64,000 bases of DNA from Cannabis sativa (Eukaryota; Streptophyta; Magnoliopsida; Rosales; Cannabaceae). Positions 4,871-52,933 of this stretch are shown here, piece by piece. How positions within the stretch are numbered: position 1 is the stretch's first letter; every line of letters begins with the position of its first letter. Position numbers and translations under genes: made by a program. The notes below the pieces were generated by a model. That model searched no databases. It was given only the letters and a program-made list of their open reading frames with translations, and was not told the DNA's origin. Location: the NCBI RefSeq assembly GCF_029168945.1, contig NC_083603.1:49424406-49488405 (forward strand), given 5' to 3'.

Positions 4871-4879
4871 CAAAAGACA

Positions 4880-6800: not shown

Positions 6801-6813
6801 GCAAGTGGGAGTT

Positions 6814-7673
6814 TGTTGGGTTTTATGCCCTAAATAAAACTCATTTCAATATAATCAGATTTACTTATTAATATAGATCAGAAATAACATTTAATGTTGC
6901 ATGGTTCACATGATTTATTTCATGATTATATGTACATAATGTATAAAATCATCTGAAACCCTTTTCACATACTTGATCCTGTTTATTGTGCCGTCAACAC
7001 ATTGGAAAGTAAACATGACTATGTGAATAAATTTTCCTAGATTTATCAGACATAGGGTTTTACTGATATGATAATCTACAACAGAGTTTACTTGCATTTG
7101 GAGAAGTGCTATGTTCTTTCCAGAACATTAGTTAAAGTAAAGCTCAGGTTTGATGCATGGAGTATGCATCGGAAGGGACCGATATTGAACTTTGACTTAG
7201 ATTTAATTAAACTTACCGTAAAATCTATTCAAGTCAATATCGCCAAGTTGATCCTAGATCAAATGATCTTAATCCTGTTATGATTAGGCTCAATCTTGAA
7301 AGGCTATTCGTGTTCTTTGATTTGTTAGTTAAGCCTACTTTTAGGTCAGGGTGATACGTACATTTTGGGAACGCGGTAGTGCAATTGAGTGGGAGCGCTA
7401 GCATAAACATGGAATCTATAGCTTCTAGCTGGCGAATAGTAAGCAAAGGATGATCACCTTCGAGCTTGACCAAACGAAAATAAATGGTGGAGATCTCATT
7501 TCACATAAGTTGAAATATCATTTATACGGGGTCAAGTGTTTTAAGGATAAAATACATAGTAGGGTGTTACGGTAATTTAATCCCTTTACTGTGTAGATCA
7601 TTCATATAGAGGATAATTGATCAAATTAGGATTATAACAATGGATAACTAATGATGTGTCTATATGGTGGAAC
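6814..7673 (+). repeat. 3' LTR of element A, first part
   Basis: Begins TGTTGGGTTTTATGCCC directly after the polypurine tract and matches the first half of the B LTRs. It is cut at 7673 by insertion of element B and resumes at 17500. Confidence 0.92.
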
Positions 7674-9590
7674 TGTTGGGTTTTATGCCCTAAATAAAAC
7701 TCATTTCATATAATCAGATTTACTTATTAATAAAGATCAGAAATAACATTTTATGTTGCATGGTTCACATGATTTATTTCATGATTATATGTGTATATAA
7801 TGTATGAATTCTTTTTAAGTCCAGAACATATGAGTTTGTTAAAGATTATAGTGTTGTCAGCACAGTGGAATATAATCTTTATTATATGTTCAAAAGTTGA
7901 TTCCCTGATTTGTCAGAACACTGGATTTAGACTGACATGGTATAATCAGCGATAGGTATTCTTACACCTTGGAAAAGTGTTATGTCCTTTCCAGGACATT
8001 GGCAAAGTTTACCAGTATCGGATGCATGGAGTATGCATTGGAATGGACCGATATTGAACTTTGAATTAGATTTTGAAACTTACCGTAAATATCTATTCAA
8101 TTCAATATCAACTGTTGATCCTAGATCACATGATCGAAATCCTGATATGGTTAGGCTCAATTTCAAGAGTATTATTCGTGTTCTTTGATTTGTTAGTTAA
8201 GCCTAGTTTTGTATCAGGGTGATACGTACATTTTGGGAACACGGTAATACAATTGAGTGGGGGAGCGCTAACATAAATATGGAATCTATAGCTTCTATTT
8301 GGCAAATAGAAGTAAAGGATGATTTCTTTCGAGCTTAACCAAACGAAGATAAATGGTGGAGATCTCATTTCACTTAGGTGAAATATCATTTATACAGGGT
8401 TAAGTGTTTTAAGGATAAAATACATTGTAGGGTGTTACGGTAACTTGATCCCTTTACAGTGTAAATCATCTATATAGAGGATCATTGATCACATTAGGGT
8501 TATAACAATGGATAACTAATGACGTGTCTATATCGTGGAACATATAGAGCGTTTCTATATGACTGAGAGTGCAATTCCAAGTTCTAAGTGTGGATTCAAT
8601 GAGGAATTAATAAGTTAGGGAATTTACTTGGTAAATTCGGCTCGACTTATTGGAAGCTCGGTTATATAGACCCATGGTCCCCATACTAGTTGAGGCCATA
8701 CTGCTTGTAAGACTCAGTTAATTGATTTTAATTAATCAATTATAATTCTAAAAGTTAGACTATGTCTACTTTATGAATTCTCACAGTTTAAGGATGAAAT
8801 CGTAAAGAAAAGGGTTTCTAGGTTTAATTATTAATTAAGAGACTTTGTAAGTCTAATTAATAATTATTTTAAATGAAAATATTATTTAATAATCTATTTT
8901 AGTTATTAAATAATTAGTTTTGGGATTTAAATGATTAGAATTGGAAAAATGGCATTTTTGGAGAAATTGAAATAAAATTGAGGAAACTGCAAAATCCAAG
9001 TGAGGCCCATATTCCCTCTATGGCCGAAGCACTCCCTTTGTGTTTCCCAATTATTATTTTCATTTTTAATTGCCATGTAATTGCTAATCAAAGCCTAGCT
9101 ATAATAGGAAAGTGGTGGATCACACTAAATAAGGCAGTTAATTGATTACACAGTAATTAAGGAAACTGTTTTATTTGGAAAGTTGTGCTCTCCCTTTTCC
9201 CTATATAAAGGAACCTTGCTCTCTTCTCTTGTATGGATGAAAAGCCACGAAATTGAGAGAGAAAAATAGAGAGAAATTTCGAAATCCTTGTGAGATGAGT
9301 AGTGCCCACACACATCAAGTGGTATCTCAATCATAGTATGGAAGACTATGGAATTTCTGCACCAAAGGAGGAGAAAAGAAGATCCAGGTTCAGATCTTGG
9401 TGATGCTCTGCTACAGAAAGGAATCAAGGGCTAGAGATCTGAACGGAAGGAGTCATATTATTCCGCTGCACCCACTGTAAGGTTTTCTAACTTTATATGT
9501 GTTTATTTTCATTGTTTTAGAATTCATATTAGGATGTTAATCCAACATACTTGTTAGTAAATCTAGATCCTGGTAAAATAATTTCCAACA
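7674..9590 (+). repeat. 5' LTR of element B
   Basis: Runs from TGTTGGG to CCAACA, with TG...CA ends. It is the same length as the 3' LTR. Short reading frames here (for example minus 9146-9427) recur identically in the other LTR and have no protein resemblance, so I do not count them as genes. Confidence 0.95.
9201..9210 (+). promoter_or_regulatory. TATA box of the element B 5' LTR
   Basis: CTATATAAAG lies about 390 bp before the LTR end, followed by a CT-rich start region. The 3' LTR copy is at 17105-17114, and the diverged A LTR has CTATAAATAG at 18071-18080. This is the expected U3/R transcription start. Confidence 0.7.
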
Positions 9591-9592
9591 AC

Positions 9593-9610
9593 TGGCACCA
9601 GAGCCATGGT
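9593..9610 (+). promoter_or_regulatory. Primer-binding site, initiator-Met tRNA type
   Basis: TGGCACCAGAGCCATGGT starts two bases after the LTR end. It resembles the usual plant copia site TGGTATCAGAGC, complementary to the 3' end of initiator tRNA-Met, with two differences near the start. Its position fixes the 5' LTR boundary. Confidence 0.88.
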
Positions 9611-12600
9611 AATGATTTACTTTCATGTAATATGAATTAAAACGATGATTGCATGTTTCTGTGTTGATTTGGATGGTTTCATGTTGGTTTATGTGTTGTT
9701 TGATGAATGTTGATGTTGTACAGTTTCGTTTTCCATGAAAAATATTTTTTCAATTTTTCAAAATATTTTATTTGGATTCCTTGTGAAAAATTAAGCAATT
9801 TTGTTTTTTACGGAACTCGATTCCGATAAAAATTGAGAAAGTTATGAATTTTGGAATATTGGAAATCATGGTTGCTGCATGTAGCCTATCCTGGCAGTTC
9901 CCTACAAATTGCGAATTTTTGAGGTTTTTTTTTCCAAAAATCTAATTTTTTCATGGGATTGTTTCCAAAAATTTATTTTTCCAATTTTAAATATTTCTAA
10001 ATTGAAATGTTTTCAATTTTAAATATTTTCAATTTGGAATTTTTCCAACTTTAAATATTTCTATTTTGGATTGTTTCCAATTTTTAAATATTTCCTATTA
10101 TGGTCAGATTTAAAAATTTGTTAAGTTATTTAATATTTATTTATTACTTAATTATAAGATTAGATATTTTGATATTTAAGATATTTTAAATTAAAAGATA
10201 ACTTTGTCTTTTTATTAAAAATATTATATTAAAATTATCTTATATGGTAAATTAAATAATTAATAAATTTGAAATTAACATAGATATTTTTATAGATATA
10301 CTTACCATAATATTTTTCAAATTCAAAAATTTGTTATTTTGTTAAATATTTAATTATTTATAAATTATAAGTATAAAAATGATATTTTTTCTATATATAT
10401 CATTTTTTCCTTATTAGAAATTTATAAATCATATTTTAAATATTTAAATAACATAGATATTTTTGTAGAGATTTGAATATTGCTTAATTTGAGATATTTT
10501 GACACATAATTATGGTAATTGTTATTTAACCAAATCTATTTTAAAATTGGTTTATTTTATTAAATTATAAGATCTGAAAGTGATATTGGAGATTCATTCC
10601 TTTTAAATCATTGATCTTATTAGATATTTAATTTAATTTGATTCAAATAGACCTAGATATTTTAAAATTAGTTTCCTTTATTTGGTTAGTTTAAGAATAA
10701 TAATTTAATTATATTAATATCTTGATTCACATCTGTTACATGGACAATGTTTGTTTATTTAATATTGTTTATTCAAAACTTTTTAACAAACCTATTATTT
10801 ATCTGATCTAAATTGCTATGATTAACTTGTTGACAGATCATGGTCCAATGATCTGATTTTAATCATAGTCCAATTGACGATAGATCTTATAAATAATTTG
10901 TAATTAAATTTTGTACTTCTTTCATCTGTGTAAACCTAGTAACATGATAGGGTCCATCCAAATCATTTGACCTGTGTGAGCCTATATGTTTGCTTTTGGG
11001 CTTAGATACATATAGGGAGCCCATTTAAGTTTTTACTAAGTAAATGGACTAGGTTGCTAAAACAAATTTTAACATAAGGAAATTTATTTAGGCCCAATTA
11101 GATTTGGGCTTATTCAATGAATAACAATTGTTTATTTTAAGGTTAAATTCCTCTCTTTTGGGCCTTGTGTGAGAGTTGGGGGCCATAGAAGTGGGTACGA
11201 CATACTGAACCCAGCTCCCCCTCACATGAACTACCCCAATTGTGAAGGCCCATTTGCCTTATTTAAATAATTGTATTAGGTTAATTATATTAGTCTAACC
11301 TAATTAAAATTGAATTAGCAACATAATTAACTTTTAAAATATATGAAATTTATTTTTCTTGTAATATTTTAAAGTTAATTTTAGAAAAACACTTAGTCAA
11401 TGATATATTCTAGATAGCTATTTCTAGTACTAGTTATTATTTCTAATATTAAATAGGAAAATATCATAGATTGTGAAATTAATTGTTTCCTAATTAATTT
11501 TGGTACAATCTAAGTTTAGAATATTTTCCTAGTATTAAACTAGAATTAATAATTAAGTTTCCTCTTTACTTAATTATTTATTTCTTGAATTTAATACATT
11601 TAATTAAATTGAAAATTTTCATATTTAAGTTGATTTTCATCATGATACTTAAATATTGTTATTTTCATGTTATTTAATTAAAGTTGAAAATTATTTTAAG
11701 TTTGGAATCTTATTTCAGAATAACTTAAGTCTGAATAATTTTCAGAATATATTTTATTTTATTTTATTAATCATTTCCCAAAATTTCGAAATTACATTTC
11801 TTTAATGCAGAAATTTCGAATTTTATTTGAAAAATAGATTAAAGTTGAAAATTATTTATTTAATTTTGGACCAACTTAAATCAATGACTTTTTCATTTAA
11901 TGGTTAATTAAAATAAATGAACTAAAATATATTATAATTAGAAATTGGATTAATTAGTCCATGAAAGTCTAGATAGATATTATCTGTTTTGCTTGAAGTA
12001 TTTTTCTAGTGTATTTAATTAAATAGAAAATTAATATTTAAGTTGATTTTTAATCATGATACTTAAATATTTGAGATTTTTCTTAGATATTTAATTAAAT
12101 AGGGAAATTATATTTTTTGTTGAAAATTAATTTTTATTAATTTTGGGCCAACATAAAATTAGAGTAATTTTCCAGGATTTATTTTATTTTATTTTAAAGC
12201 ATTTTCGAAAATGCAATATATATTTATAGAAAATTAAATTTGAGTTGTAAATTAATTCAAATTAATTTTGAAACAACTTAAATTGAATAATTTTCTAAAT
12301 ATTTATGGAAATTATTACTAAGATGGAAATAATTCACGTTATTTATCCATCTAAGTATAATTTATAAATATTAAATTAAAATTTATATTTGGAATTTTTC
12401 ATTCTAAATTGGAAATTTTAATTGAATAAATATATATTTAAAATAAATGGATTAAAATAAATGTTAGAAGAAAATACAACCCTTCATTAAATAATGAGCT
12501 TTATTATTATAAGGATATTCGATCTCCATTGTTGGTTTTACATAGCTATTGTTTTAGTGAGTAATCCTCCCTAATGGAGGAACGTTCATTAGCAAGTTAG

Positions 12601-13640
12601 CACCGTTTAATCTCGAAAGATAAGTAATCTTGTAAGTTTTTTATATAGTTTATGACCACCCTAATGGTGGCGACTGTATAAGACTTGCAAGAATATGAAA
12701 CAATGGTGGAAGCTCATAAGATAGAATAGCCTTGACTCTCGCCTAAACGGGACAACGCGGATTCACATCTTGATCGAATAAAAGGTTGCTAGAATGTTGA
12801 TCATTTTAGATGAGCTGACAACTCTGTTCAATGAATGGTAGCTTTGACTCTCGCCTAAACGGGACACTGATATCAATTTGTTGAAAACCTTGGAAATTAT
12901 TTAGGATTGTATGTTTTAGTATTTTCACTTGTCATTCCTACTTGCTATGTGCTTCATAATTTCTGAATTGTGTATGAATTTGTATTGAACCATGTTATTT
13001 TCTGTTATTAAATTGTAGTTTAATTTCGAATCTTCATTGTTGGTCTAACTTGATTTGTTTTTCTAATGAGATAAATTCCTAATGGATTTTCACCATTAGA
13101 CTAACATAATAGTGTTAGATCTCGAAAGATAAATATTGTAAATGCAACATCTAGTTGTTCATCAATTGATGACACTTTAGACTAGTGTTTTACAATATGA
13201 AACAAGAAGATTGTATAAATAAGATTACTTTGACTCTCGCTAATCGGAGCATCGTTGGATTCTTATTTAAAACGAAATTATCCTAATTCCTCTTAGCTTA
13301 TTCATTTCGAATTAGCTTAATGACATATCATTGGATGAATGGTCTATAAATCATATAAAGTCTTATTTTCTCTTAAGAAATTAGATGACGCATATGATTA
13401 TATTCCCGGAATTCTATCCCTAAATGATAAAAATCCTCAATCTTAGATATCTCCTACTTGTATAGGCAAATCATAGAGTTAGATTAGTAATGGTGGTCCA
13501 AGAAAGAATTACTAATTATACAGTTACACTTTCACAAGTGTTTCATAACCATTTTCTTTCAATGGATTCAAACTGTATGAGTTTAGTATTCTGTGACCAG
13601 AATCCACTTGCACTATTCTAAGAACTCTTTGATGTAACTA
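9611..13640 (+). other. Non-coding leader of element B
   Basis: Four kilobases of AT-rich sequence with no credible gag. It holds the conserved stem-loop at 11165-11229 and three copies of the GC-rich motif around 12729, 12841 and 13229, all shared with A. A long leader with dead coding sequence is typical of parasitic LTR elements. Confidence 0.75.
11165..11229 (+). other. Conserved leader stem-loop, element B copy
   Basis: TTGTGTGAG (11165-11173) faces CTCACATGA (11221-11229). Compared with element A the 3' arm has C to T and A to G changes that both keep pairing as G-U. The loop GGGGGCC...CCCCC is also retained. A function in packaging or dimerisation is inference. Confidence 0.5.
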
Positions 13641-13654
13641 AAGTAAGTCATCAA

Positions 13655-15560
13655 ATGATACAACCACATTTTATAAATCTATGGCATTTATATCTTGTTC
13701 ATAGTGGTTTTGACAAGATCATTCTCTGCAAAGAGTTAATATGCCTATATCCACTGAAAGTAATTTCATCTCATCCGCAGATGGATGTACATTCAGGGGT
13801 GGATATGAGTTTTCGTTGTATTCTTAAAACGATCACTCTAGATTTTACCTTATGCAAAAGAAATTTGAAATGTTTGAAAAATTTCATGAATTTCTAGCAA
13901 AGGTAAGTGGTTAAAGATCTTGCGAACTGATAGGGGTGGAGAAAAAGTTAGTAGATATGCAGTTCAAAGATCATTAATTTGATTTTGAATAATATCCAAA
14001 CTTACCTCCCCAGAAATTCGATTTGCATATTGATGATTAGTTACTAGTCATTGCCTTAATTCTTCTATGGTAATATAATTTCAGAATGATGTAATGGTTG
14101 TATACTTTATGTAAATCATTACTAGATTCATGGATGACCTAATTGAAATCTTAAGAAAAGCTAGAACTGCTAACCTTGGTTTGCATGTTTGTTAGCTATT
14201 CTAAGTGATTAGGGGTGGAGCATCCCGTAGTCATTAGATAAGAAAGTGTTTGTTTAAACAAATACTACTTTTCTAAGAAAATGACTAAATTTGAAAATAA
14301 AGTAGCAAATAAAGGAGATATTTTTTTCTTGATTCCAAAAGTGTTCTATCATCTTATTTTACAAGATGATCCCACTGCCTCTGTTGTCTTAACAACACTG
14401 AAGAGGTCTATACCATTTAGTTTTCTTAGACATAGTTCACGGTACCTTTTTGTAGTGGGCGAGTTTCTAGGAACTCACCTTCTTATAACTTGGAAGACAC
14501 TAGTGATTAAAATCCATTGTGAGTTTAAACAAGTAATGGATTGTCAAGATAAGAAACTAAGAAGAAAGCCAATAGAACTATGGTTTGATCCATTCACATG
14601 GAGTAACCTAAAGTTTTCTGTTACAAGGACATGAAAGGAAATTTTCGTTAATAAGTCTATTCAATGGACTTAACAAAACTTCCTGTTCCTAGTATTGTAG
14701 GTTTGAGTTTATCTAAACCTATGGCTTGTGGTATACCTGGAAATTACTTACTCTAATGCAAGCATGAGATGCTGATGCATTTTCTTTCCAATGGAAATCT
14801 ATAGAAACTTCACAACTTCTTAGGCATAGATTTTATTTATCTAAGTAAAAGTCTCAACTATTCCAGAAAAGATAAAGCCATGAAAGAATTTCTTATATCA
14901 ACAGTGAGAGGTCTTAGATATGCTTTTGCATGCCTTAGACCAGACACCTGCTGTTGAGTGGGAGTAATGAGTAGATATCAAATTAATCCAGATGAAGAAC
15001 ATTGGAAGACAATCAAGTAAATCTTAAGATTAAGAAGAGGAACTATATGTTAGTCAATAAGAGTGTTTGTTTAAAACTCTTAGACTACACCACATCAGAT
15101 TTCAAGACTTGCCTTTGTGCTAGAAAGTCTGCTGATGAGATGGTGATTACTTTGGGGGTGGAGTAGTGATTTTGGAGAAGTGTAAAAACCTATCTGAAAT
15201 CTCTTGGTCTACCAGAAAGAGACTGAATGTTAAAAGTTGCAGGAAAGATACTTTTTCAGTCTAAGGAAAGTTCTATACATTTGTGGCAGTGTTCCAACTT
15301 GCCTTAACTACTAGGGTTACTTCCTGAATAACGAAAGAGTAGTTGTCCAAAAGTATAGAATCCAGTATCCCAAAAGAGTAGACATATAGAGAGGAATTTC
15401 ACATTATCAAGGATTTTGTGATTAAGGAAGAGTAATGGTGGAGAAGAGGTTGTGTTTAATTCAACCTGTCAGATCCCATTACGAGGAGTATACTACTATT
15501 ACACTTGATTGGTATATCAAGGTGTTAATGATTATTTAAAATGCACTTTTTGTTTTATAT
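13655..15560 (+). pseudogene. Degenerate copia pol of element B
   Basis: Collinear with the A pol relic. The order is a pre-integrase stretch (WHLYLVHSGFDKI from about 13681), an integrase-core fragment (FEMFEKFHEFLA, then ILRTDRGGE near 13913-13944), an RT C-terminus (RGLRYAFACLRPDT near 14900), TIK-stop-ILR, and a decayed RNase H region to the polypurine tract. The stops TGA 14955-14957 and TAA 15018-15020 match those in A. The longest open stretch (14281-14634) has no obvious family resemblance beyond its place between integrase and RT. The function is lost. Confidence 0.82.
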
Positions 15561-15567
15561 TAGTGCA

Positions 15568-15577
15568 AGTGGGAGTT
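15568..15577 (+). other. Polypurine tract of element B
   Basis: AAGTGGGAGT directly abuts the 3' LTR start, as plus-strand priming requires. The identical tract precedes the A LTR at 6814. Confidence 0.8.
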
Positions 15578-17494
15578 TGTTGGGTTTTATGCCCTAAATA
15601 AAACTCATTTCATATAATCAGATTTACTTATTAATAAAGATCAGAAATAACATTTTATGTTGCATGGTTCACATGATTTATTTCATGATTATATGTGTAT
15701 ATAATGTATGAATTCTTTTTAAGTCCAGAACATATGAGTTTGTTAAAGATTATAGTGTTGTCAGCACAGTGGAATATAATCTTTATTATATGTTCAAAAG
15801 TTGATTCTCTGATTTGTCAGAACACTGGATTTAGACTGACATGGTATAATCAGCGATAGGTATTCTTACACCTTGGAAAAGTGTTATGTCCTTTCCAGGA
15901 CATTGGCAAAGTTTACCAGTATCGGATGCATGGAGTATGCATTGGAATGGACCGATATTGAACTTTGAATTAGATTTTGAAACTTACCGTAAATATCTAT
16001 TCAATTCAATATCAACTGTTGATCCTAGATCACATGATCGAAATCCTGATATGGTTAGGCTCAATTTCAAGAGTATTATTCGTGTTCTTTGATTTGTTAG
16101 TTAAGTCTAGTTTTGTATCAGGGTGATACGTACATTTTGGGAACACAGTAATACAATTGAGTGGGGGAGCGCTAACATAAATATGGAATCTATAGCTTCT
16201 ATTTGGCAAATAGAAGTAAAGGATGATTTCCTTCGAGCTTAACCAAACGAAGATAAATGGTGGAGATCTCATTTCACTTAGGTGAAATATCATTTATACA
16301 GGGTTAAGTGTTTTAAGGATAAAATACATTGTAGGGTGTTACGGTAATTTGATCCCTTTACAGTGTAAATCATCTATATAGAGGATCATTGATCACATTA
16401 GGGTTATAACAATGGATAACTAATGATGTGTCTATATCGTGGAACATATAGAGCGTTTCTATATGACTGAGAGTGCAATTCCAAGTTCTAAGTGTGGATT
16501 CAATGAGGAATTAATAAGTTAGGGAATTTACTTGGTAAATTCGGTTCGACTTATTGGAAGCTCGGTTATATAGACCCATGGTCCCCATACTAGTTGATGC
16601 CATACTGCTTGTAAGACTCAGTTAATTGATTTTAATTAATCAATTATAATTCTAAAAGTTAAACTATGTCTACTTTATGAATTCTCACAGTTTAAGGATG
16701 AAATCGTAAAGAAAAGGGTTACTAGGTTTAATTATTAATTAAGAGACTTTGTAAGTCTAATTAATAATTATTTTAAATGACAATATTATTTAATAATCTA
16801 TTTTAGTTATTAAATAATTAGTTTTGGCATTTAAATGATTAGAATTGGAAAAATGGCATTTTTGGAGAAATTGAAATAAAATTGAGGAAACTGCAAAATC
16901 CAAGTGAGGCCCATATTCCCTCTATGGCCGAAGCACTCCCTTTGTGTTTCCCAATTATTATTTTCATTTTTAATTGCCATGTAATTGCTAATCAAAGCCT
17001 AGCTATAATAGGAAAGTGGTGGATCACACTAAATAAGGCAGTTAATTGATTACACAGTAATTAAGGAAACTGTTTTATTTGGAAAGTTGTGCTCTCCCTT
17101 TTCCCTATATAAAGGAACCTTGCTCTCTTCTCTTGTATGGATGAAAAGCCACGAAATTGAGAGAGAAAAATAGAGAGAAATTTCGAAATCCTTGTGAGAT
17201 GAGTAGTGCCCACACACATCAAGTGGTATCTCAATCATAGTATGGAAGACTATGGAATTTCTGCACCAAAGGAGGAGAAAAGAAGATCCAGGTTCAGATC
17301 TTGGTGATGCTCTGCTACAGAAAGGAATCAAGGGCTAGAGATCTGAACTGAAGGAGTCATATTATTCCGCTGCACCCACTGTAAGGTTTTCTAACTTTAT
17401 ATGTGTTTATTTTCATTGTTTTAGAATTCATATTAGGATGTTAATCCAACATACTTGTTAGTAAATCTAGATCCTGGTAAAATAATTTCCAACA
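15578..17494 (+). repeat. 3' LTR of element B
   Basis: 1917 bp, TG...CA ends, about 13 substitutions from the 5' LTR, then the duplication GGAAC and resumption of the A LTR. Confidence 0.95.
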
Positions 17495-17499
17495 GGAAC

Positions 17500-18528
17500 A
17501 TATAGAGCATTCTATATACTGAGAGTGCAATTCTAAGTTCTATGCGTGGATTCAACGAAGAATTAATAAGTTAGTGAATTTTAGTGCTAAATTCTTGATC
17601 TACTTATTGGAAGCTCGGTTATATAGACCCATGGTCCCCCCACTAGTTGAGATAATATTGCTTGTAAGACTCAAGTAATTGGTTTTGATTAATCAATTAT
17701 AATTCTCAAATTAAACTATGTCTATTTGTGAAATTTTCACTAAGTAAGGGCGAAATTGTAAAGAAAGAGTTTATAGGGGCATATTTGTTAATTATGATAC
17801 TTTGTATGGTTCAATTAATAAATATGATAAATGACAATATTATTTAATAATTATTTATAGTTATTAAATAGTTAGAATTGACATTTAAATGGTTGAATTA
17901 GGAAATTGGCATTTTTGAGAAAATCAGATACAAAAGGTGTTAAAATTGCAAAATTGCAAAAAGCAAGGCCCAATCCACTAAGTGTATGGCCGGCCACCTA
18001 TTGTAGTATTTTAAGTTGATTTTTTCATTATTTTAATGCCATATAATTCAAATCTAACCCTAGTGGAATGCTATAAATAGATAGTGAAGGCTTCAGGAAA
18101 ATTAGACTTTTCTTCAGACTTTCTGAATCAGAAAAAACTGAGCCTTCTCTCTCCCTATCTTTAGCTGCCACTCCTTTCTCTTCCTTTGAATTTCGAACTA
18201 CCTTAGTGTATGAGTAGTGCCCACACACATCAAGTGATACCTCAATCATAGTGAGAAAGATCGTGAAGAAAGATAATCAACAAAGGAGATTCAGCATCAA
18301 AGATTCAGAGAAAGAGATCCAGGTTCAGATATTGATAATGTTCTGCTATAGAAAGGAATCAAGGGCTAGATATCTGAACGGAAGGAGTCATATTATTCCG
18401 CTGCACCCAATGTAAGGTTTCTTAAACTTTATATGTGTTTATTTCATCGTTTTAGAAAGTTCATATTTAGGATGTTAATAAACATACTTGTGAGTAGATC
18501 TAAGATCCTGGTAAAATAATTTCCAACA
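17500..18528 (+). repeat. 3' LTR of element A, second part
   Basis: Continues the A LTR after the B insertion and ends TTTCCAACA at 18528. Its TATA-like CTATAAATAG is at 18071-18080. It is visibly more diverged from the B LTRs than these are from each other. Confidence 0.9.
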
Positions 18529-19190
18529 TAGCCAAGCTCGAAGGATATCATCATTTCACTTCTAAATTCCTATAGAAGTTATAGACTCCATATTTATGTT
18601 AGCGCTCCCACTCAATTATACTATCATGTTCCCAAAATGTACGTATCACTCTGACCCAAAAGTAGGCTTAACTAACAAATCAAAGAACATGTATAATACT
18701 CTTGAGATCGAACCTAAACATATCAGGATTAAGATCATTTGATCTAGGATCAACGGGTGATATTGAATTGAATAGATATTACGGTAAATTTTAATATATC
18801 TAATCAAAGTTCAATATCGGTCCCTTTCGATGTATACTCCATACATCTGATACTGGTAAACTTTACCAATGCCCTGGAAAGGACATACCACTTATCCAAG
18901 GTGTAAGATACCTATCGTTGATTATACCATGCCAGTCTAAATTCAGTGTTCTGACAAATCAGGGAATAAACTTTCGAACATATAATCAAGATTATATTCC
19001 ACTGTGCTGACAACACTATAATCATTAACAAATTCATATGTTCTGGACTTAAATAGAATTTATACATTATATATATAATCATGAAATAAATCATGTGAAC
19101 CATGCAACATTAAATGTTATTTCTGATCTTTATTAATAAGTAAATCTGATTATATTGAAATGAGTTTTATTTAGGGCATAAAACCCAACA
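18529..19190 (-). repeat. Minus-strand LTR fragment C of the same family
   Basis: Reverse complement of the first roughly 660 bp of the LTR, ending AAACCCAACA at 19190, the complement of TGTTGGGTTT. It begins abruptly where element A ends, so A most simply inserted into LTR C, whose other part would lie left of the window. Confidence 0.85.
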
Positions 19191-19192
19191 AT

Positions 19193-21642: not shown

Positions 21643-23498
21643 TTTACTATTCAATGGTTACATTTTTATTATAACTATATGGTTATATTTTTCTTTAGCC
21701 TGTAATAACAGATTACTAATAGGTAGACTTTCCTTTTTTTAGATTTAATTAATTATAATTAACTATTTTTTTAAAATAATTAATTAAATAGACATTCTTT
21801 TTTAAAAATTATTTAATTATAATTAATTATTTTCTAATTAAATAGACATTCCTTTTTTAGAATTATTTAATTATAATTAACTATTTTCTTAAAATAATTA
21901 ATTAAATATTTAACAAGACTTCTTTTAGCAATTAATATTTATATTTAAATCCTTACTTGAATTATTTTAATAATTAAGCCATTTAATTATAATATTTACA
22001 ATAAAATTTATTTTTTTTACAAAAATTAAACTTCTTTTGACACAAATTAAAATTCTCTTCTTATAATAAATTTTTAAATAATTAATTATTTTGTTACAAT
22101 TATATGAACTAAGTATGAGGCCTCAAGCTAATCAATCGATAACAAGTGCAGCCATTTTTTTTCTAAGAAATCTTTCAACTTATTTCATTTTTTACTTGTT
22201 AAATATTTAAATAAAAAAATTAAATAATTAAGTGTAATAATTTAAAAATTAAGATTACAAGCATAATAATATTTAAATTATGAAATTATATGTGTATAAT
22301 TTTAAATTATAAAAAATTTTGCTATAAAATTTTAAATAATTTAAGTATAAAAAAATAAATTGCTAAAAGATCCTTATATAGTAATAAATTGCAAAAAATT
22401 AATTAATAATTATAATTAATTTAATTTTAAAATATAATTAATCTTAATTAAAGTTTTATAAAGAAATAAATAATTAGGTTACGCTCAGGTTACAAGTTAT
22501 TTATTATTTATTTTTATTTAATTTCCAAATTAATCACAACCATTTAATAGTAATCTAATGGCTTAAAAAAATGTAACCATGATGGTTACAATAAAAATGT
22601 AATCATTAAAACCTCTTTCTTAACTATTTTCTTAAAATAATTAATTAAATAGACATTCCTTTTTTAGAATTATTTAATTATAATTAACTATTTTCTTAAA
22701 ATAATTAATTAAATAGACATTCATTTTTTAGAATTATCTAATTATAATTAGCTATTTTCTTAAAATAATTAATTAAATATTTAACAAGACTTCTTTTAGC
22801 AATTAATATTTATATTTAAATCCTTACTTGAATTATTTTAATAATTAAACCATTTAATTATAATATTTACAATAAAATTTATTTTTTTTACAAAAATTAA
22901 ACTTCTTTTGACACAAATTAAAATTCTCTTCTTATAATAAATTTTTAAATAATTAATTATTTTGTTACAATTATATGAACTAAGTATGAGGCCTCAAGCT
23001 AATCAATCGATAACAAGTGCAACCATTTTTTTTCTAAAAAATCCTTCAACTTATTTCATTTTTTTACTTTTTAAATATTTAAATAAAAAAAATTAAATAA
23101 TTGAGTGTAAAAATTTAAAATTAAGATTACAAATATAATAAAATTTAAATTATGAAATTATATGTGTATAATTTTAAATTATAAAAAATTTTGCTATAAA
23201 ATTTTAAATAATTTAAGTATAAAAAAATAAATTGCTAAAAGATCCTTATATAGTAATAAATTGCAAAAAATTAATTAATAATTATAATTAATTTAATTTT
23301 AAAATATAATTAATCTTAATTAAAGTTTTATAAAGAAATAAATGATTAGGTTACTTTCAGGTTACAAGTTATTTATTATTTATTTTTATTTAATTTCCAA
23401 ATTAATCACAACATTTAATAGTAATCCAATGGCTTAAAAAAATGTAACCATGATGGTTACAATAAAAATGTAACCACTAAAACCTCTTCCATATTTAT
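21643..23498 (+). mobile_element. DNA-transposon-like repeat R (plus copy) with internal tandem duplication
   Basis: The two ends carry inverted sequence: ATGGTTACATTTTTATT near 21654 and the complement near 23470, each followed by a second inner copy of GGTTACATTTTT, which could form hairpins. Inside, about 880 bp is tandemly duplicated: TAACAAGACTTCTTTTAGC occurs at 21911 and 22792, period 881. Shorter repeats of about 60 bp (TTAATTAAATAGACATTC) sit at each copy's start. A minus copy is at 53371-60770. No coding sequence. The class is unresolved (a MULE-like non-autonomous element is possible) and the exact ends and target duplication are uncertain. Confidence 0.65.
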
Positions 23499-44170: not shown

Positions 44171-44514
44171 ACATATTAATTAAATATGGCAAAGATTAAA
44201 AAAAAAAGATGACAAGATTTTACGTATATTAAGCTAACATATGTAAAAGAGAAATTTTTAGGGGAAAATTACAACTATTTTTGGTTAAATTTTTACATTT
44301 TACGTTTAAAATTTTATTTATTTATTTTTTTACGGTATTCTACAAAGACACAAATAAATCACATGAAAGTAAATAAGATTTTAAAGACTATAAAAATACT
44401 TAAAATTCCGTACAATCGTATTTTTGTATTTTTTTTATTATTTGTGTGTGTTTTAAATTATCCCAATTTTTAGCCCATCAACACATGAAGTGGGTGCTAA
44501 GCTCTTTTATTTTA
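44171..44514. other. AT-rich spacer left of the large MULE
   Basis: No coding. The last nine bases, TTTATTTTA (44506-44514), are the left target duplication of the MULE. Confidence 0.6.
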
Positions 44515-44982
44515 GGTAAATTTACACCCATTACTGTTTTTTCCCAATTTTTTTCGTTTATACTGTTACACGCTCAAGTTTTCTTTTCTATTGTTTTTTT
44601 TTTTGTGGCAGTATATTGACTTTCAAACTTTAACATTCAATGGGTTAATGCTTCACACTTGTCACGATAGGGTTTTGCCACGTTTTTTTTTTTTTTTTAA
44701 AAAAAAGAATTCATTTTTAATTTTTTGATTTGACGGTTTTCTATTCTTATCAAAAGGTTATGTACTTTTTCATTTTTCTTTTATTTTTTTTTATTTTTTT
44801 CGAATATAAATTTTTTACTTATAACTCTCTCTCCCCTCAACTATTCATCTTCTTCCCCCATTTTCAGTTTTCTTTTACAGTTTCGAGTAGTGGGTGGTTT
44901 TTGCATTTGAAAAAAATTTCAAATCTCATCCCACTTTCTTAAACTTCCCTCTCATTTTCCCCCCCATTTTTATTATTTTTGT

Positions 44983-44990
44983 CTATAAAT
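44983..44990 (+). promoter_or_regulatory. TATA box of the ULP-like gene
   Basis: CTATAAAT about 20-27 bases before the ATG at 45010, after a CT-rich leader. It is unusually close to the start codon, so the true transcription start may lie further upstream or the leader is very short. Confidence 0.55.
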
Positions 44991-45009
44991 ACCTTCATAA
45001 TTCCTTATA

Positions 45010-48000
45010 ATGGCCGTTACTCGTTCATCTCCATCTCCGGCTAAAGCTACAAAACCCACAAAACAATCCCAGAAAACCAGACCTAAATCAAAAATTGGTA
45101 AAACAAATATTAAAGACAACCCTCCTAGCCCCACTTCCCCTTCTGCTAAAAGAAAAACTCATGGTGGACCTTCGAAGAACACTCGAGGAAAAAGACCTCG
45201 AACTGTGGTTGAAAACTCAGACTCAGATTTTGAGTTGGAATCTGAATTTCTTAAGTCGCCTGTCTCTGTGAAGGTATTTTACTATTTATCTTTTGTTGTT
45301 TTTGAGGTTTTTTTTTGTTAAATTCGATTTTTGAAGTTCATATAACTGAGTATATGTTTGTTTTTGTTTTTGTCTCTGTATTTGTAATTGTTTTATATAT
45401 CTTGTTTGATTTATTTATGTGTTTTTTTTAAATTTTTATTTGTTGTTTTGTTGGTGTTGTTTCGTTTTATTGTAGGGCAAGGGTAAATCCCCTGTAAAGG
45501 TGTTGTCATCATCAGGTGTGGCTGAGAAAATTCCTGTTAATAGGATTGTTGAGGTTTGTCATGTTATGCATTCTGTTCTATGTTTTTTTTTTATTGTTTT
45601 TTTTATTGTTATTTCGTAGTGTTTTATGGTGTTTTATGAGTGTTTTTTATTGTTCTGTTTTTTAGGATTGGGAATGCAAGTACACTCGATCTCAATTCTA
45701 TCATTCTAGAGTAGTAACATCTGGGTATTACTCTGTACTTGGAGACATTAAGAGAATTCTAACTGAAAGCCAATTGGAAATTTTTTCAAAATCTGTGTTT
45801 GGTTATTTTCTTCGGATTCCGGAGTACATAATTCATTACCAATTGCTTCATTGTTTGCTGTTGAGGGAGGTTCAACAGCCTAATGGGTTGGAGTTTTGGG
45901 TTTGTGTCCAAGGGAAATATCTTAGGTTTAGTATCGAAGAGTTTGCGTTGGTCACGGGGTTAGATTGTCATGTTGATTCTGATTTTTATCAGTTTAAGCA
46001 AGATGATAATGAATTGGTCAAACATTGTTTTAAGGGGTACAAAAAAATTACCAAGGGTGCTATTCAGACTGCTTTTATTGCTGACAATCTTAAGGATAAC
46101 GACGATCTTGCAGTCAAGTTGGCTGTCTTGTATTTTGTGCAGTGTTATTTGTTGGGTGGTCCCCCGGGTAAAGTTGTTTCGTCTGAGGAAATAGATGTTG
46201 TCGATAGTGGTCGATATAATGAATTTGGTTGGGGCAAGCATTGTTTTGATATCACTATGCATTCTTTGAAGGGTAAGATAGATTCTGGTTATAAGAGGGT
46301 AGTTCGTAGTGACGAGGATGGTGGGTATTACAGGTTATTGGGTTTTCCTTTGGCTATTCAATTCTGGTTTTTCGAGTGTTGCCCGTACGTTATTGGGAAA
46401 CTGTCGTTGTACTCAAATGTTGGCATTCCAAGGATTTTGAATTGGCCTAAACTACCCAAGGACAAGGAGGGTCAAGTGAAAATGGATGTCATGAACACTC
46501 TCATTTTCGATCGGTCTTTGAAAGAGGTAATTCTGTTGTTTTTTTACACTATTTCCACTGTTGTTTTAATGTTGTTTTTGTGTACATTAGTTATACTTTA
46601 TGTTTTGATTGTTGTTGTTATTTTATAATTTCAGTTTCATGTGCATATTTTTTTTTTTGGTTTTTGTTGTTTCAGTTAAAATTAAGAAACATCACTCCAA
46701 CTTCTGTTGAGAGATTGAGTTTGAGCCTTACTGATTTTTTCTCTGGTGAGACTACTCCCGATGCTGTCAAATTCAAAATTAAAGGTGGTTCCAAGTCTGT
46801 AGGTCAACCTGGCTTGATGGGTGCTTCTTCATCATCTGCTCATGAGAATGTCTCCCGAGTTGAGTTTGAGGAATTTAAAAAGAGTCTATCTGTTGTTGTC
46901 AGCCAGCAAGGGATACTTATGAAATCTGTTGCTGAGATGAACAAGAAGTTGGACATTCTTATTGAGGTGTTTTTTTAATTGTCTTTACTTTTTTCTGTTA
47001 TTTTTTTAGTAGTGTTTTTATGTTGTTTTATACAGTAAATTAATTTTTTAAGTTTTTTTTGTTCTCAGTCATCCCAAGGTGGTCTTACTCACAATGAATC
47101 TCAGTCTGAAGATGCTCTTTGTTCTTCAGAAAATGAGGATGATGAAGATTCCACTTCAGAGGAAGATGAGGATGATAAAATCGACGATGACAAAGGAGAT
47201 GATCATCATGACGATGAAACTGATGATGATGATGATGATCTTGGTGGAGATGGTGTTGGTGCTGGTCAGGATGAGGCTCACACGGGGGATGTTCGTAATG
47301 ATGAGGGTGTTGTTGTCCCCGAGGTTGTTTCGAGGGATGATGATACCGGCAAGGTGGATGATGCCAAGAATTCTGACCCTGTGGAACCTGTTGCAGAGAT
47401 CAAACAGGTGTATTTCTTGTTTGGCCATCATTTTTTTTGTGCCCTTTGTGTGGATTTTGTGTTTTGTGTTTGTTTTAATAGTTTTTTAATGTTGTTTTTG
47501 TTGTCAGCCTGAACAGTCTCAAGGTGGGGAGGAGAACATTGATGTTGATGCAACAATTGCATCTGTTGTTAAAGCTGTGGATAATTTGGTTTGTATTTCT
47601 CTTTTTTTTCCTTTGTAATTTGTGTTTATATGGTATTCTATTGTTGTTTTAATAGTGTTTTGATTGTACTTTTTGAAATAAAAAAAATCTTCTATTTTTC
47701 CTTTTTCTTTTTTAGATTGGTTCCTCAACTCATGTCCCTGCTTCTGTTGAGACTTCTGAGAAGACTGATCTTGAAATGGTTGTTTTTCAAGAGACTCCTA
47801 TTTTACGTCCTCAAAAGAGGGATCGGAAGAAAGGAGCTGTTTTGAAATCTCCATTCATTGAGCTTGCTTCTGGTGCATCTAAATCAGGTTCATCCTCAGT
47901 TTCTCCTGATGATTCTGTTTATAAGGTCGTTAAATATGTGCGTGGTTTGTGCCCGTTGGACAACAAGATTGGTGAACCTGTCGATCCGCAATTGGAAGCT

Positions 48001-49199
48001 GAGTTTGTCACGTGGGTTGATACAGGTCTTAGAAAGCATAAATCTAAGTAAGTATTTTTGTAGGTGTTTTCAGTTATATATCTCTTATCGTTTTCCATTT
48101 AGTTTTTAATTTTTTATTTGTGTTTTGATATTTTTTTATTTGTTTTTTTTAGCACAACAACTAATGTGTATTGTAAGGGTAAGGACACAATATTTCCGCC
48201 TTTTCGTTTTGGTGTTGAGGACATTAGCAACAAGATGTGGTTTCACAACCTTGCCTACCCTAATTGTTTCCTTACCAATTCTGTAAGTTTTTTTATTATT
48301 ATTATTATTATTTATATATTTTTGTTGTTTTTTTTTTTTAATTTTTTTTATGTTTTTAAGTGTTGTTCTGTTAGTTTTTTTATAAGTTTGAATGATTTTT
48401 ACTAAATTTTTTTTCTTGTACAACACATTGACATTCGAAAATCAAAGTCACCACAACTGATTGCCTTTTTTGTTCTAGCATAACAAGTTTGTATGAGAAG
48501 TTTGTTGAGAAAAATAACGATATATCGGTGTTGTCTCTTTCTCACAATGTGGCCCAGTACATCCAAGGTGGTAAGATATTATGTGCCACTCCTTGGCATT
48601 TGGTTGATCATGTTGTTATGCCTATCAATGTAAAATTACAGGATCATTGGATTTGTGGTCGTCTAAACATAGTTGACAGGCGGATATATCTGTACAATTC
48701 ATTGCGTTCTGGAAGGTATATGACAGCTGCAAAAGAGGCTTGCAAGCCTTTTTCTGTTATTTTACCATATTACTTCTCTATGTTAGACTTCAAAGGCCTT
48801 CGCAACGAAGCTAAGTTTAGCACGATGGAACCGTTCCCTATTGTTGCTGTTGATGGTTTACCCGAGCAGGTCACAGCGTAAGTTTTATGTATAGTGTTCA
48901 ATGTTTTTCATTGCTTGTTTGTATTGTTATGTTTTTGTTATGTGGCTTTGATTTTTATTAGTGTTCTCATAGTGTCTGTTTTTGTGTTTTCTTATTGTTT
49001 TTTTTCCAGTGATTGTGGTGTTTTTGTAGCATCATTTGCTGAGTATTTCATTGATGGCAAACTCATCCCATCCTCTGGTTTTGATGTGGAAATTCACCGC
49101 GATCGTTTGGCTGTGTTATTTTATCAATATGGCATGAAGAAGCAACTTGAGGACATTGAAAGTGAATCCGAGGCCCCTCCCAGCCTTCCCAAGAAGTGA
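45010..49199 (+). CDS. ULP1-like (C48) cysteine protease with DUF1985 domain, MULE-borne; probably damaged
   Basis: Predicted exons by GT-AG sites: 45010-45273, 45476-45553, 45666-46526, 46676-46966, 47069-47407, 47508-47588, 47716-48047, 48153-48282, about 48430-48877, 49010-49199; roughly 1000 residues. The N-terminus is basic (KKTRPKS-type, nuclear-signal-like). Exon 3 is a DUF1985 domain (FWVCVQGKYLRFSIEEFALVTGL). Exon 5 is strongly acidic (D/E runs). The C-terminus is a ULP1 peptidase: His in DHWICGRLNIV, Gln in GLPEQ, Cys in DCGVFVASF. The usual catalytic Asp position reads YNSL, an Asn. Such enzymes remove SUMO; transposon versions are of unknown substrate. Lesion: at the exon 9 start no AG acceptor is seen (TTGTACAACACATTGAC) and the frame shifts between HIDI and KVTTTDCLF. 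Confidence 0.78.
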
Positions 49200-49712
49200 T
49201 TTGTTTTTTCAATCAGACTGTCATTGTTCTTATAGTTTTTTAATGTTGTTTTTATGTTTTTTTATGTTGTTTTCGTAAACAAACATTGGTGTTCTGTTAT
49301 GTTTTCTTACGTTTTGTATGGACAATATGTAATCTTTATTTTTGTATGTTTTTTTTTCTTCTTCTTATGTACAAACAAGTTGTTATGTTAAATTTGGTAG
49401 TATTTTCATTTCACATCCCTTCTTTTTATGTTTTTTTTTCTTATAGTTTCTCTGTGTTTTTGAATACAAATATTCATTTCAGTATTAAAAACACAAACTG
49501 TTTCAAAAATAAACTTCATATATTTATTCAATTTAGTATCCAACATCTTTTAATATCTAATCTAAAGTATCATTAAATCCCAATGTAATCAATGTTTTCA
49601 AATAAAAACTGTATTCCCTTTGTATTTCAGAAATTTAAATTCCTCAATATCTCATTCTCAAAACGTATGTGTAGTTTTCTTTTGTTTTTCCACTGTTGTT
49701 CTGCTGTTGTTT

Positions 49713-52387
49713 TTATTCCCTTCTACGTCTTCTGCTGCATGTTCTTTTGTTATGCCCCAGTTCACCACATTTGCTGCACTTGTTGTGTTGATCCTTTTAC
49801 CATCCAGCCTTCCTTCTTAATGTTTTTGGTCTTCATGATTTTACTCTTTCATGCGGAGGCAAGACTATAATATTCTTCACTTCTTCCGGTACCTCCCACT
49901 CACTTTGGTGTCCTATTGGGTAAACTGTCCCTGAATAAGTTGCCAGCCAATTTTTTTTTGTGTAGTAATCTGAACAGTAGGTGTACGGGTCCATGTTCAT
50001 CTCCCTCATCACGGTCACAGCGTGCCCGCATGGCATTTCATCTATTTGGAACCTGTTGCACGTGCATGTTCTTTTTTCTAGGTCTACTTCCCACGATTCT
50101 TTCATTCTTGTTACCTCAAACAAGTAATCTGTTGTTGCTTTAACCTGTTTTAAATTTTATTACAAAAAAAAAAAAAACAAACATAGCTGATATTCTTACA
50201 ACAACAATACAAAACTATTAAAACAACACTACAGCAACACATTTTACTTACTGTTTGTTTTTTTTTTTTTTTACAAAAAAAAAAAAAACATAATTAATAT
50301 GTTACCTCCAGATTCAATGAATATGTGTAATTTTTCAACAGTATGTCTTCTCCAGTTGGTGATAGCTTAGTGAAGGTGTTGTGTGCTTTTGTCCTATTAG
50401 TATGCGTCCATTGTTGCACCAATGCTCTCAAGCATTCTAGCAGCGTTGTAATTGGTAGCTCCCTTGATACCAAATTTGCAGCGTTCAGTGATTCTGATAT
50501 GTTTGAGGTCATTGTAGAATACCTCGTGTTTTGGCTATGAATTCTTGACCACTTTTCATAACCGACTTTTTTTAGGTAAGGTCTTATGCGTTTGTCCAAT
50601 CCATCCAATTCATCCATGTGGAACTCGAATTACTTTTCATGTGTAGGCTTTGACTGCTCCAAAGAATGGCAGATTGTATTTGGCAGCATGTTGTTTGAAG
50701 CTTGTTTTAAGGTTGCTCAAAATGTGGTAACCGCAGTAACTGTGTGTAATTTCTGGATAGATTTCTCTTGCTGCTTTGATGAGGCTTTCATTCCTGTCTG
50801 AAATTAGGCATTGGTGTTCCCGGACCCCATACGCTTCTTTAAATTTTTTGAAGAACCATTTCCAAGATTGGTCATTCTCAGAATTTGCAACACAAAACGC
50901 TAGTGGAAAAATATGACCTACTGCATCTTGTGTGCATGCGCACAACAAAGTTCCCCCATAAGCTGCTTTGAGGAACGTTCCGTCCACAACAACTATCGGT
51001 CTGCATGCTCCCCACCCTTTTATGGATGCATCCAACGCCATGAAAACAAAGAGCAAGCTGTTGTCTTCTGTTGTTTTAAGATCGACAAATGATCCCGGGT
51101 TTGTTTTTTCCACCATGTGTAAGAAACTCGGTATTAGGCTGTACGAGTCACTAGCATTACCTCTCAAGTCGTTTACAGCATGTTCCTTACTTCTCCAAGC
51201 TTTCATATAGTTCATTTTGATGCCATATCTGTATTTCAACTCCCCTTTTATGTCCATCGGTGTTGCCTTTGTCTTTATGTTCAAGAACTTCGGTTTTATG
51301 CATTCCCCTATCAGTTTCGATGTTGCTTGCCTTTGGTCTTCATGCCTAATATTTATGGGGCATGTGTGCATATTTGAGAACCTATTAAAACAAAAAACAA
51401 CATTAAAAAACTTTTAAAACAAAAACAACTAAAACAACATTAAAAAACTATTAAAACAAACCTGTTGCAGAGATCAAACAGGTGTATTTCAGTACAAAGT
51501 GTGGAAAAAGGGCATTTTTTCAGGCTGACAACAAAAACAACATTAAAAAACTATTAAAAACAAACCTCCTGATTATGAATGTGTTTGTTGGGCCATTTCT
51601 CGATGCTCGTAGTGACCAATTGCAGCTTTCGTAAACACATTTCAGACTGTACTCTTGAGAGCAGGACTTCCACACTTTGTACTGAAAGTTGTTTTTGATT
51701 GCATAGTAGCTGAGGACATTCTTTAGAGTTTCTTTGTCTTTGTATGCCTGTCCTTTTTCCACTTCGGGGTGATGCTTGTCTGTTATTAACTTTGCATTGT
51801 TGATGTCGATTTCTGGATCCACTTTTTTACTGGTGTTTTCAAGTTTTTCTACCATTTCTTCAAAGAACTTGATTTGCATAGTCAATTATGTCGAATTTGT
51901 CGTTCTCATCTTCTATTGTTTCTGACTGTTCCCCTTCTTCTGTTTGCTGTCCCGTTGTGTATGATTCTGTTGTTGTTATGTTGTTTTCAAGCGTTGTTGT
52001 GTTGTTTTCGATCATTGCCACATTATATTCATACGGTGTTGTTGTGGATATCAAATTTGGTGTTGCAGCAGGTGTTGTGTTGTTGTTTTGCTGGTTGACG
52101 CATAGTGGATATGTGGTGAAATCTGTTTCCTTGATTTTCAATTCCAAGTAAAAGTAGAGGCTTCGATTGTTGCATATTTTGATCGATGGTATTCCTTCTT
52201 TAGCTTGGTACTGTATTTGTAGTGTTGTGCTGGTATTTTCGCACCCCAATGAAGTAAGCAGTATTTGCAGTAGCTCTTCGTAGTTGCATTTTGTTGGTAT
52301 GAATTCTCCACTAGCCACATAGTTCACATAATTGTGATCTTCATTCCATTGTCCATTGCTCTTGATGAGTACTGGTAGACGTTCCAT
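49713..52387 (-). pseudogene. MuDR-type MULE transposase (MURA-like), broken
   Basis: Exons about 52387-51567, 51381-50306 and 50134-49713. N-terminal PB1-like region (LIKSNGQWNEDHNYVNY), a N/T-rich linker, then the DNA-binding domain typical of Mutator transposases (ETLKNVLSYYAIKNNF ... CVYESCNWSLRAS). The DDE core follows: Asp in VVVDGTF, Asp in LISDRN, Glu in NISESLN. Next come a SWIM zinc finger (CTCNRFQIDEMPCGH) and a C-terminal zinc knuckle CSKCGELGHNKRTC. Lesions: an extra T near 51872 shifts the frame before the DNA-binding domain; a shift plus stop lies near 50640; in-frame stops sit at 49833-49835 and 49797-49799 between SWIM and zinc knuckle. It lies tail to tail with the ULP gene, 514 bp apart. 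Confidence 0.88.
51459..51559. other. Patchwork filler DNA in transposase intron 1
   Basis: Three pieces in a row. 51459-51490 equals 47385-47416 (ULP exon 5 end plus the start of its intron, direct, 32 bp). 51488-51506 equals the complement of 51668-51686 (transposase exon 1, 19 bp). 51519-51559 equals the complement of 47473-47513 (end of the same ULP intron plus the start of exon 6, 41 bp). The short overlap TTC at the first junction is a microhomology. This is what template-switching repair leaves behind. Confidence 0.85.
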
Positions 52388-52933
52388 TACCTGTCATTCC
52401 AGTGTCTTATTTCATGTTAAAACAATAGTACAACAACAGTAAAACAATAGCAAATCAACAGAAAAAAAAAATCAACAAAAAAAATAATACAACAACAATA
52501 AAACAACACAAAAACAACCAAATAAAACTACCCATTATATTTTTTATTAGTTTTTATTATTCTATTTTTTTTTTTTAGTTTCTTAAGAATTAGATTAATT
52601 TTTGGGTTTTGTTGTATTTACCTCTGTTTTTTAGGGGGACAATGTTCTGTAGTTCTTGTTCTTCGATTATGCTTCCATTTACCAAAAACTCTTCGCCGGA
52701 TTTAATGGTTTTTTCTTGGTGATCTCCGACTCCGGCGACTCCCCACACACGAAGCAGGTCGTTTTCCCGTATTTTTTACTGTTCACAGTATAAATGTTAA
52801 GTTGTTGGGCTTGGGCAGTACAAAAGTAAAGAAAATGGGCTGGGGCAGTAAAAAAGTTGTTTTTGCCGTGTCCCAGTATTTTTGTAAAGTTTTGGTCCAA
52901 AAACAGTATATATGTAAATTTCCCTTTATTTTA

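Follow-up and report, generated by a model that had tools for sequence, protein, structure and literature searches.

The window analysed here, a stretch of 64,000 nucleotides of the Cannabis sativa genome (NC_083603.1), contains a MULE DNA transposon that carries two genes, for a ULP-like protein and for the transposase (Table 1). The element combines the PF10551, PF03108 and PF04434 domains with terminal inverted repeats and a target duplication whose length, 9 bp, falls within the 8-11 bp range for MULEs. It resembles MULEs carrying ULP genes, of the Kaonashi/KI-MULE type. In the window copy, an additional base disrupts the reading frame of transposase exon 2, and ~249 bp found in most full-length siblings (e.g. 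L009 8568-8816) are absent at 52567. Elsewhere in the window, positions 2512-19191 contain segmental duplications (15578-17494 versus 7674-9590, 99.3% alike; 13518-16445 versus 4729-7673, 88%; inverted copies at 18534-19190), and ~860 bp are duplicated in tandem at 21759-23488 (95.6%).

Table 1. Features of the MULE element and of transposase intron 1 (positions in the window)
Feature	Position	Strand	Description
MULE element	44515..52924	.	ULP and transposase genes tail to tail; from sequence
MULE element ends			GGTAAATTTACA/TGTAAATTTCCC; from sequence; ends common to siblings
9-bp duplication	44506-44514 and 52925-52933		TTTATTTTA; short flanking duplications also in sibling copies
ULP-like gene, main part	45666..49199	+	DUF1985, Ulp1 C48 peptidase domain; gene start near 45012
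ULP intron 5 (donor intron)	47408..47507	+	exon borders read from sequence
Donor of patch 1	47385..47416	+	ULP exon 5/intron 5 border
Donor of patch 3 and of the repeated unit	47468..47515	+	end of ULP intron 5, start of exon 6
Transposase exon 2	50310..51381	-	MULE domain, PF10551
Gained intron 1 of transposase	51382..51565	-	184 nt, GTTTGT...AATAG, phase 2; absent in 18 relatives and the sister family
Short-intron equivalent	51382..51461	-	repeated passes over ULP 47468-47502; 79 nt in L078
Templated block added to short intron	51462..51565	-	104 nt here, 103 nt in basal copies
63-nt exon-like block	51462..51524	-	between ULP-derived acceptor TTGTCAG and donor CAG/GTTTGT; open, in frame here
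Patch 1	51459..51490	+	direct copy of 47385-47416, 32/32
Patch 2	51487..51506	-	inverted copy of 51668-51687 (exon 1), 20/20
Probable fourth patch	51501..51511	-	inverted copy of 51752-51762 (exon 1)
Patch 3	51517..51565	-	inverted copy of 47468-47515
Transposase exon 1, last part	51566..51882	-	DNA-binding domain, PF03108

The original prediction described part of transposase intron 1 as filler assembled from three patches by template switching. This interpretation is supported, as is the assignment of the donors to the ULP gene and transposase exon 1, with both ULP patches taken from around a single ULP intron. Patch 1 was recovered in its full predicted length, and so was the 41-bp inverted patch 3 (51519-51559 matching 47473-47513, 41/41); patch 2, predicted as 19 bp of inverted exon 1, is a real match that turned out to be one base longer. 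Beyond its exact core, patch 3 extends to 51565/47468 with one extra T in the window, and at 51518 the window carries a private G>T substitution, the other 39 aligned copies having TGTTCAGG, which matches ULP up to 47515. The three patches are beyond chance. In Markov shuffles of the whole patched intron (n=200), the longest exact match to the rest of the element had a median length of 14 nt and a maximum of 21 nt, and in shuffles of nucleotides 37-103 of the patched intron (n=300), a median of 10 and a maximum of 14; the 20-nt patch is longer than the match in every shuffle of its own segment, and the 32-nt and 41-nt patches exceed all shuffles.

Read in the sense of the transposase gene, the block consists of ULP 47468-47515, ~10 nt, 20 nt of exon 1 in antisense, and ULP 47416-47385 in antisense. 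The ~10 nt perhaps derive from exon 1 as well (51752-51762, antisense), as suggested by an 11-nt exact core within a 13/14 match, which is weak on its own and has TTCCAC in common with patch 2. At the joints, as read from the sequence, adjoining pieces have in common TTCCAC (6 nt, provided that the fourth patch is genuine), GAAA (4 nt) and AGGTT (5 nt); for ~5 nt of the block (AATGC) there is no convincing source. The intron sequence flanking the patches is the same ULP intron-5 unit. Patch 2 and its donor (51487-51506 and 51668-51687) make up a 20-bp inverted repeat that might fold, in the transposase pre-mRNA, into a hairpin spanning the intron 1 donor (5') splice site.

We searched the genome from which the window comes at the DNA level and scored 40 of the 198 candidates; all 40 loci, window included, have the patch, and because the query contained the patch, this search favours patched copies. 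Using exon 1 in a protein search, in which 150 of 1623 candidates were scored, we detected relatives whose reading frame is uninterrupted through the intron site. Among the next 20 loci, L048-L065 (18/18), with 73-98% amino-acid identity in exon 1, have no insertion, and their empty sites read exactly CAGGAGG/TTCTC in 12 cases and differ by substitutions in the remaining 6; L066, which represents a sister family (~60% identity), has no intron, and L067 is patched. The following 20 loci included 18 patched copies and two with short introns, L072 (70 nt) and L078 (79 nt), which were also the only short introns retrieved by a whole-genome pattern search with the exact border sequences. Three further loci are patched, one of which ends inside the intron. 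In a derived group of patched copies, one tandem unit has been lost, leaving a 157-nt intron. In one patched copy, L099, sequence without a match in the element breaks up the intron behind the initial portion of the block.

Comparison with related copies, as proposed originally, thus uncovered patched, short and empty sites, and these coexist in one Cannabis sativa genome. The 83 examined loci comprise 62 patched, 2 short, 18 empty and 1 empty in the sister family; the loci were chosen, so that these counts are not population frequencies. Given the many independent loci that carry the patched intron, an assembly error is excluded, and the notion that the filler is a private scar of the window copy is refuted.

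In an exon tree restricted to aligned stretches (L013 and L076, with fewer than 600 columns, were dropped, and the short loci L029-L047 were not entered), all 40 intron-bearing leaves form one clade, nested within a ladder of the 18 intronless copies. The SH-like support of the intron-bearing node in this exon-only tree is low (0.341); when ULP sequence was added for 22 elements (3 empty, 2 short, 17 patched), the clade was recovered in 983 of 1000 ultrafast bootstraps. In a first tree built from over-extended sequences, the patched L013, L067, L070 and L076 appeared with the intronless L055 and L062 on long branches, a scattering caused by extension of the sequences past homology. Because the divergent copies and the sister family are empty, we conclude that the intron was gained and that transposase intron 1 was inserted recently in its entirety. 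The intron around the filler is therefore not old but itself new, and built from the same ULP intron; the patched arrangement, which in distant copies would have pointed to an ancestral intron, occurs only inside one young clade, and more distant copies are intronless.

The 70-nt intron of L072 is fully tiled by three exact overlapping passes (nt 1-35, 30-63 and 58-70) over ULP 47468-47502, 47469-47502 and 47469-47481, re-primed at 6-nt overlaps; the next best place in the element matches 22 nt. The 182-nt intron of L017, a basal patched copy, equals 103 nt followed by the 79-nt intron of L078 with one substitution. The donors are older than the intron: beside intronless transposase genes, the ULP donors are present exactly in L090 and L091 and with 3 substitutions in L094 (2 of the 7 estimated places, L092 and L093, missed ULP intron 5), and the donor of patch 1 is identical in L090 and L091, with 2 substitutions in L094. 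Since these elements have an empty transposase gene, copying proceeded from ULP to transposase; of the suggested exchange between the two genes, the transfer is real and the reciprocity is not. Concerted evolution of patch and donor was considered and rejected, as the two differ independently within copies (L013, L014, L016, L019 and L029-L047, in which the apparent ULP match may be the patch itself, were not used in this comparison).

Across the short intron and the block, the overlaps at the joints are GTT, TTTGTT, GAAA, AGGTT and AG. Short nearby templates, both orientations and microhomology joints are all features of Pol-theta templated filler, from which we infer the polymerase itself. 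A tandem duplication of exonic AGGT does not account for the insert, which is ULP intron with only 20-31 nt of exon 1, in antisense. As a separate observation, the words TTTTAATAG and TGTTGTTTT recur in sense at 47644-47664 (ULP intron 6), 49219-49253 (ULP 3' end) and 50200-50226 (transposase intron 2), and the introns of the two genes may share further copied sequence.

The 103-nt block was probably added after the short intron had formed. At ULP 47508, the 3 empty elements and the L072 element all have T, whereas the L078 element, 17/17 patched elements and the patch have C, which places L072 before the patch. L072 falls outside L078 and the patched copies in only 562 of 1000 bootstraps, and L078 may owe its short form to loss of the patch by deletion. 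We consider it unlikely that the patched intron arose in the exon at one stroke, through a single complex event, and that both short introns are later deletions between its 36-nt direct repeats. If the two ULP-unit copies recombined, the outcome would be exactly the L078 intron, loss of a tandem unit did occur in the 157-nt group, and L078 groups with patched L023, the patched copies alone forming a clade in 57 of 1000 bootstraps. Against a single event stands the distribution of T and C at ULP 47508; furthermore, L072 and L078 retain ancestral bases at exon columns 113, 434 and 491, as do some basal patched copies.

GT stands at the start of 60 of 61 introns (L019 has CT) and AG at the end of 61/61; the T content is 66% in the short intron and 62% in ULP intron 5, compared to 19% in exon 1. 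Exon 2, behind the intron, evolved under purifying selection on the internal branches of the intron-bearing clade (N 33, S 41, neutral N/S 2.68, p = 3.1e-7, one stop; dN/dS ~0.30, by parsimony on one FastTree topology), and not on the terminal branches (N 211, S 77, p = 0.89, eight stops; dN/dS 1.02). The corresponding counts for exon 1 are N 2, S 10 on internal (dN/dS 0.09) and N 39, S 36 on terminal branches. Such selection on exon 2 implies splicing of the intron, and splicing during the spread of the element best explains this pattern. Gene models disagree: the intron is cleanly excised in P0045, which matches the L078 element, and in P0046, which matches L014, whereas four NCBI models (P0001, P0042, P0043 and P0044) take in the 63-nt block rather than excising the full intron; models are not RNA.

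That the insertion is unspliced and the intron-bearing copies are dead passengers, mobilised by the transposase of intronless siblings, appears improbable to us. Non-autonomous MULEs are common, many intron-bearing copies, including that in the window, contain stops or frameshifts, and an unspliced reading meets a stop 15 codons past the junction. Dead passengers, however, would not account for the purifying selection on internal branches behind the intron, which is found again in a derived 19-leaf subclade (exon 2: N 21, S 29, p = 7e-6).

Retention of the patch for a function, as a 63-nt alternative exon or as a 20-bp hairpin with exon 1, we regard as distinctly improbable. The length of the exon-like block is a multiple of three, the block is open in 35 of the 59 patched introns, and four gene models (P0001, P0042, P0043 and P0044, with 19 member sequences) include it. 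Yet there is an in-frame stop in 8 of the 59, a shifted frame in 2 and a lost border motif in 14, so that the block does not look maintained. Moreover, if it were used along with the normal donor, the upstream intron would be 41 nt long and 21 residues would be inserted within the zinc-binding region, and patch 2 does not covary with exon 1.

Precise loss of an old intron from the 18 intronless copies, for example through cDNA, is scarcely credible: precise loss is an accepted process, as the available text of PMC3443670 indicates, and the empty sites are exact, but all divergent sampled copies (L059, L063, L064, L065) and the sister family are intronless, which calls for many separate losses, a scenario we reject, and the intron is made of neighbouring-gene sequence still almost identical to its donors. 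Transposition of a spliced intron by reverse splicing into transposase mRNA and return through cDNA has just as little to recommend it and is rejected because no whole donor intron is present from border to border: the new intron is indeed intron-derived and sense-oriented, but the short form has neither the first 60 nt nor the splice borders of ULP intron 5 and goes repeatedly over 35 nt of its interior, and the block holds exon pieces and antisense pieces.

Our preferred reading, to which we assign a probability of about 0.8, is that templated DNA repair gave rise to a spliceosomal intron within the transposase gene of a MULE, in a step-wise manner, through the short, the patched and the multiplied form. 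In a first step, a break, probably double-strand, would have occurred at the proto-splice site CAGGAG^GTTCTC in the uninterrupted exon; the sense end would have paired, by means of GTT, with ULP intron 5, either in the same element or in a sibling, ~35 nt would have been copied in sense with two slip-backs at TTTGTT, and the other end rejoined through AG. The product, 70-79 nt and two-thirds T, its GTTTGT contributed by the joint and its AATAG by the interior of ULP intron 5, would have been spliceable and left the protein unchanged. A second event, presumably later, would have been primed in the unit now common with ULP, run into ULP exon 6, continued with antisense copies of exon 1 and of the ULP exon 5/intron 5 border, and come back via AGGTT to where the intron begins, a gain of 103 nt. 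In the third step, the element would have multiplied, a derived group losing one tandem unit. The likely mechanism is break repair with repeated template switching, Pol-theta-like.

The origin of spliceosomal introns is a long-standing open question, and the mechanisms of intron gain were termed "exceptionally enigmatic" in a 2012 review, as quoted from its available text (PMC3443670). The present case is a recent gain for which an empty site, a donor, the direction of copying, the joints and a probable intermediate are found in one genome. We consider it likely that introns can seed introns through DNA repair, an exon break being filled in sense from an existing intron and the filler spliced at once because it is already U-rich and intron-like. 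If so, this MULE family has kept all three states (empty, short, patched) alongside a known donor, target and direction of copying, and suggests why the filler was spliceable, namely, as a sense copy of an intron; other multi-copy transposons could be searched for similar cases.

In the literature searched (open-licence PMC only), we found no account of this case. New, in our view, is the interior of an intron as the template, together with the survival of a probable intermediate; unusual, too, are the repeated passes and the spread of a new intron by its own carrier element. MULEs of the Kaonashi/KI-MULE type likewise combine ULP-like and transposase genes within one element; what we describe concerns intron gain rather than the kind of element. 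That introns may arise in the course of break repair is a recognised idea for which clear cases are scarce, according to the part of PMC3443670 available; there, too, new DNA at a break becomes an intron of the GT-AG type, bordered by short direct repeats (in our case AGGTT). That part cites mitochondrial filler and flanking repeats, and 5 unambiguous cases with no plant among the species listed, whereas the donor here is the intron of another gene in the same element, copied repeatedly and with a likely intermediate; for Drosophila, the available portion of PMC3296678 reports that flanking repeats are not in excess. In plants, filler DNA and templated insertions are familiar, among them complex filler in an existing maize p2/p1 intron, and, as far as the accessible text of these papers goes, share with the present block the mosaic of short copies in both orientations, the microhomology joints and the nearby templates (PMC2686159, PMC10923293). 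Those fillers are scars, whereas the filler described here became an intron that has since spread through dozens of copies. Introners, single sequences inserted independently many times as introns of different genes, are likewise recent introns linked to transposable elements, and the available text of one survey records none in land plants (PMC9860276); unlike introners, this intron shows no sign of self-movement and is carried within its element. Finally, intron transposition by reverse splicing also derives a new intron from an existing one, but here the copying took place at the DNA level, was confined to an internal part of the donor, was repeated, and ran partly in antisense.
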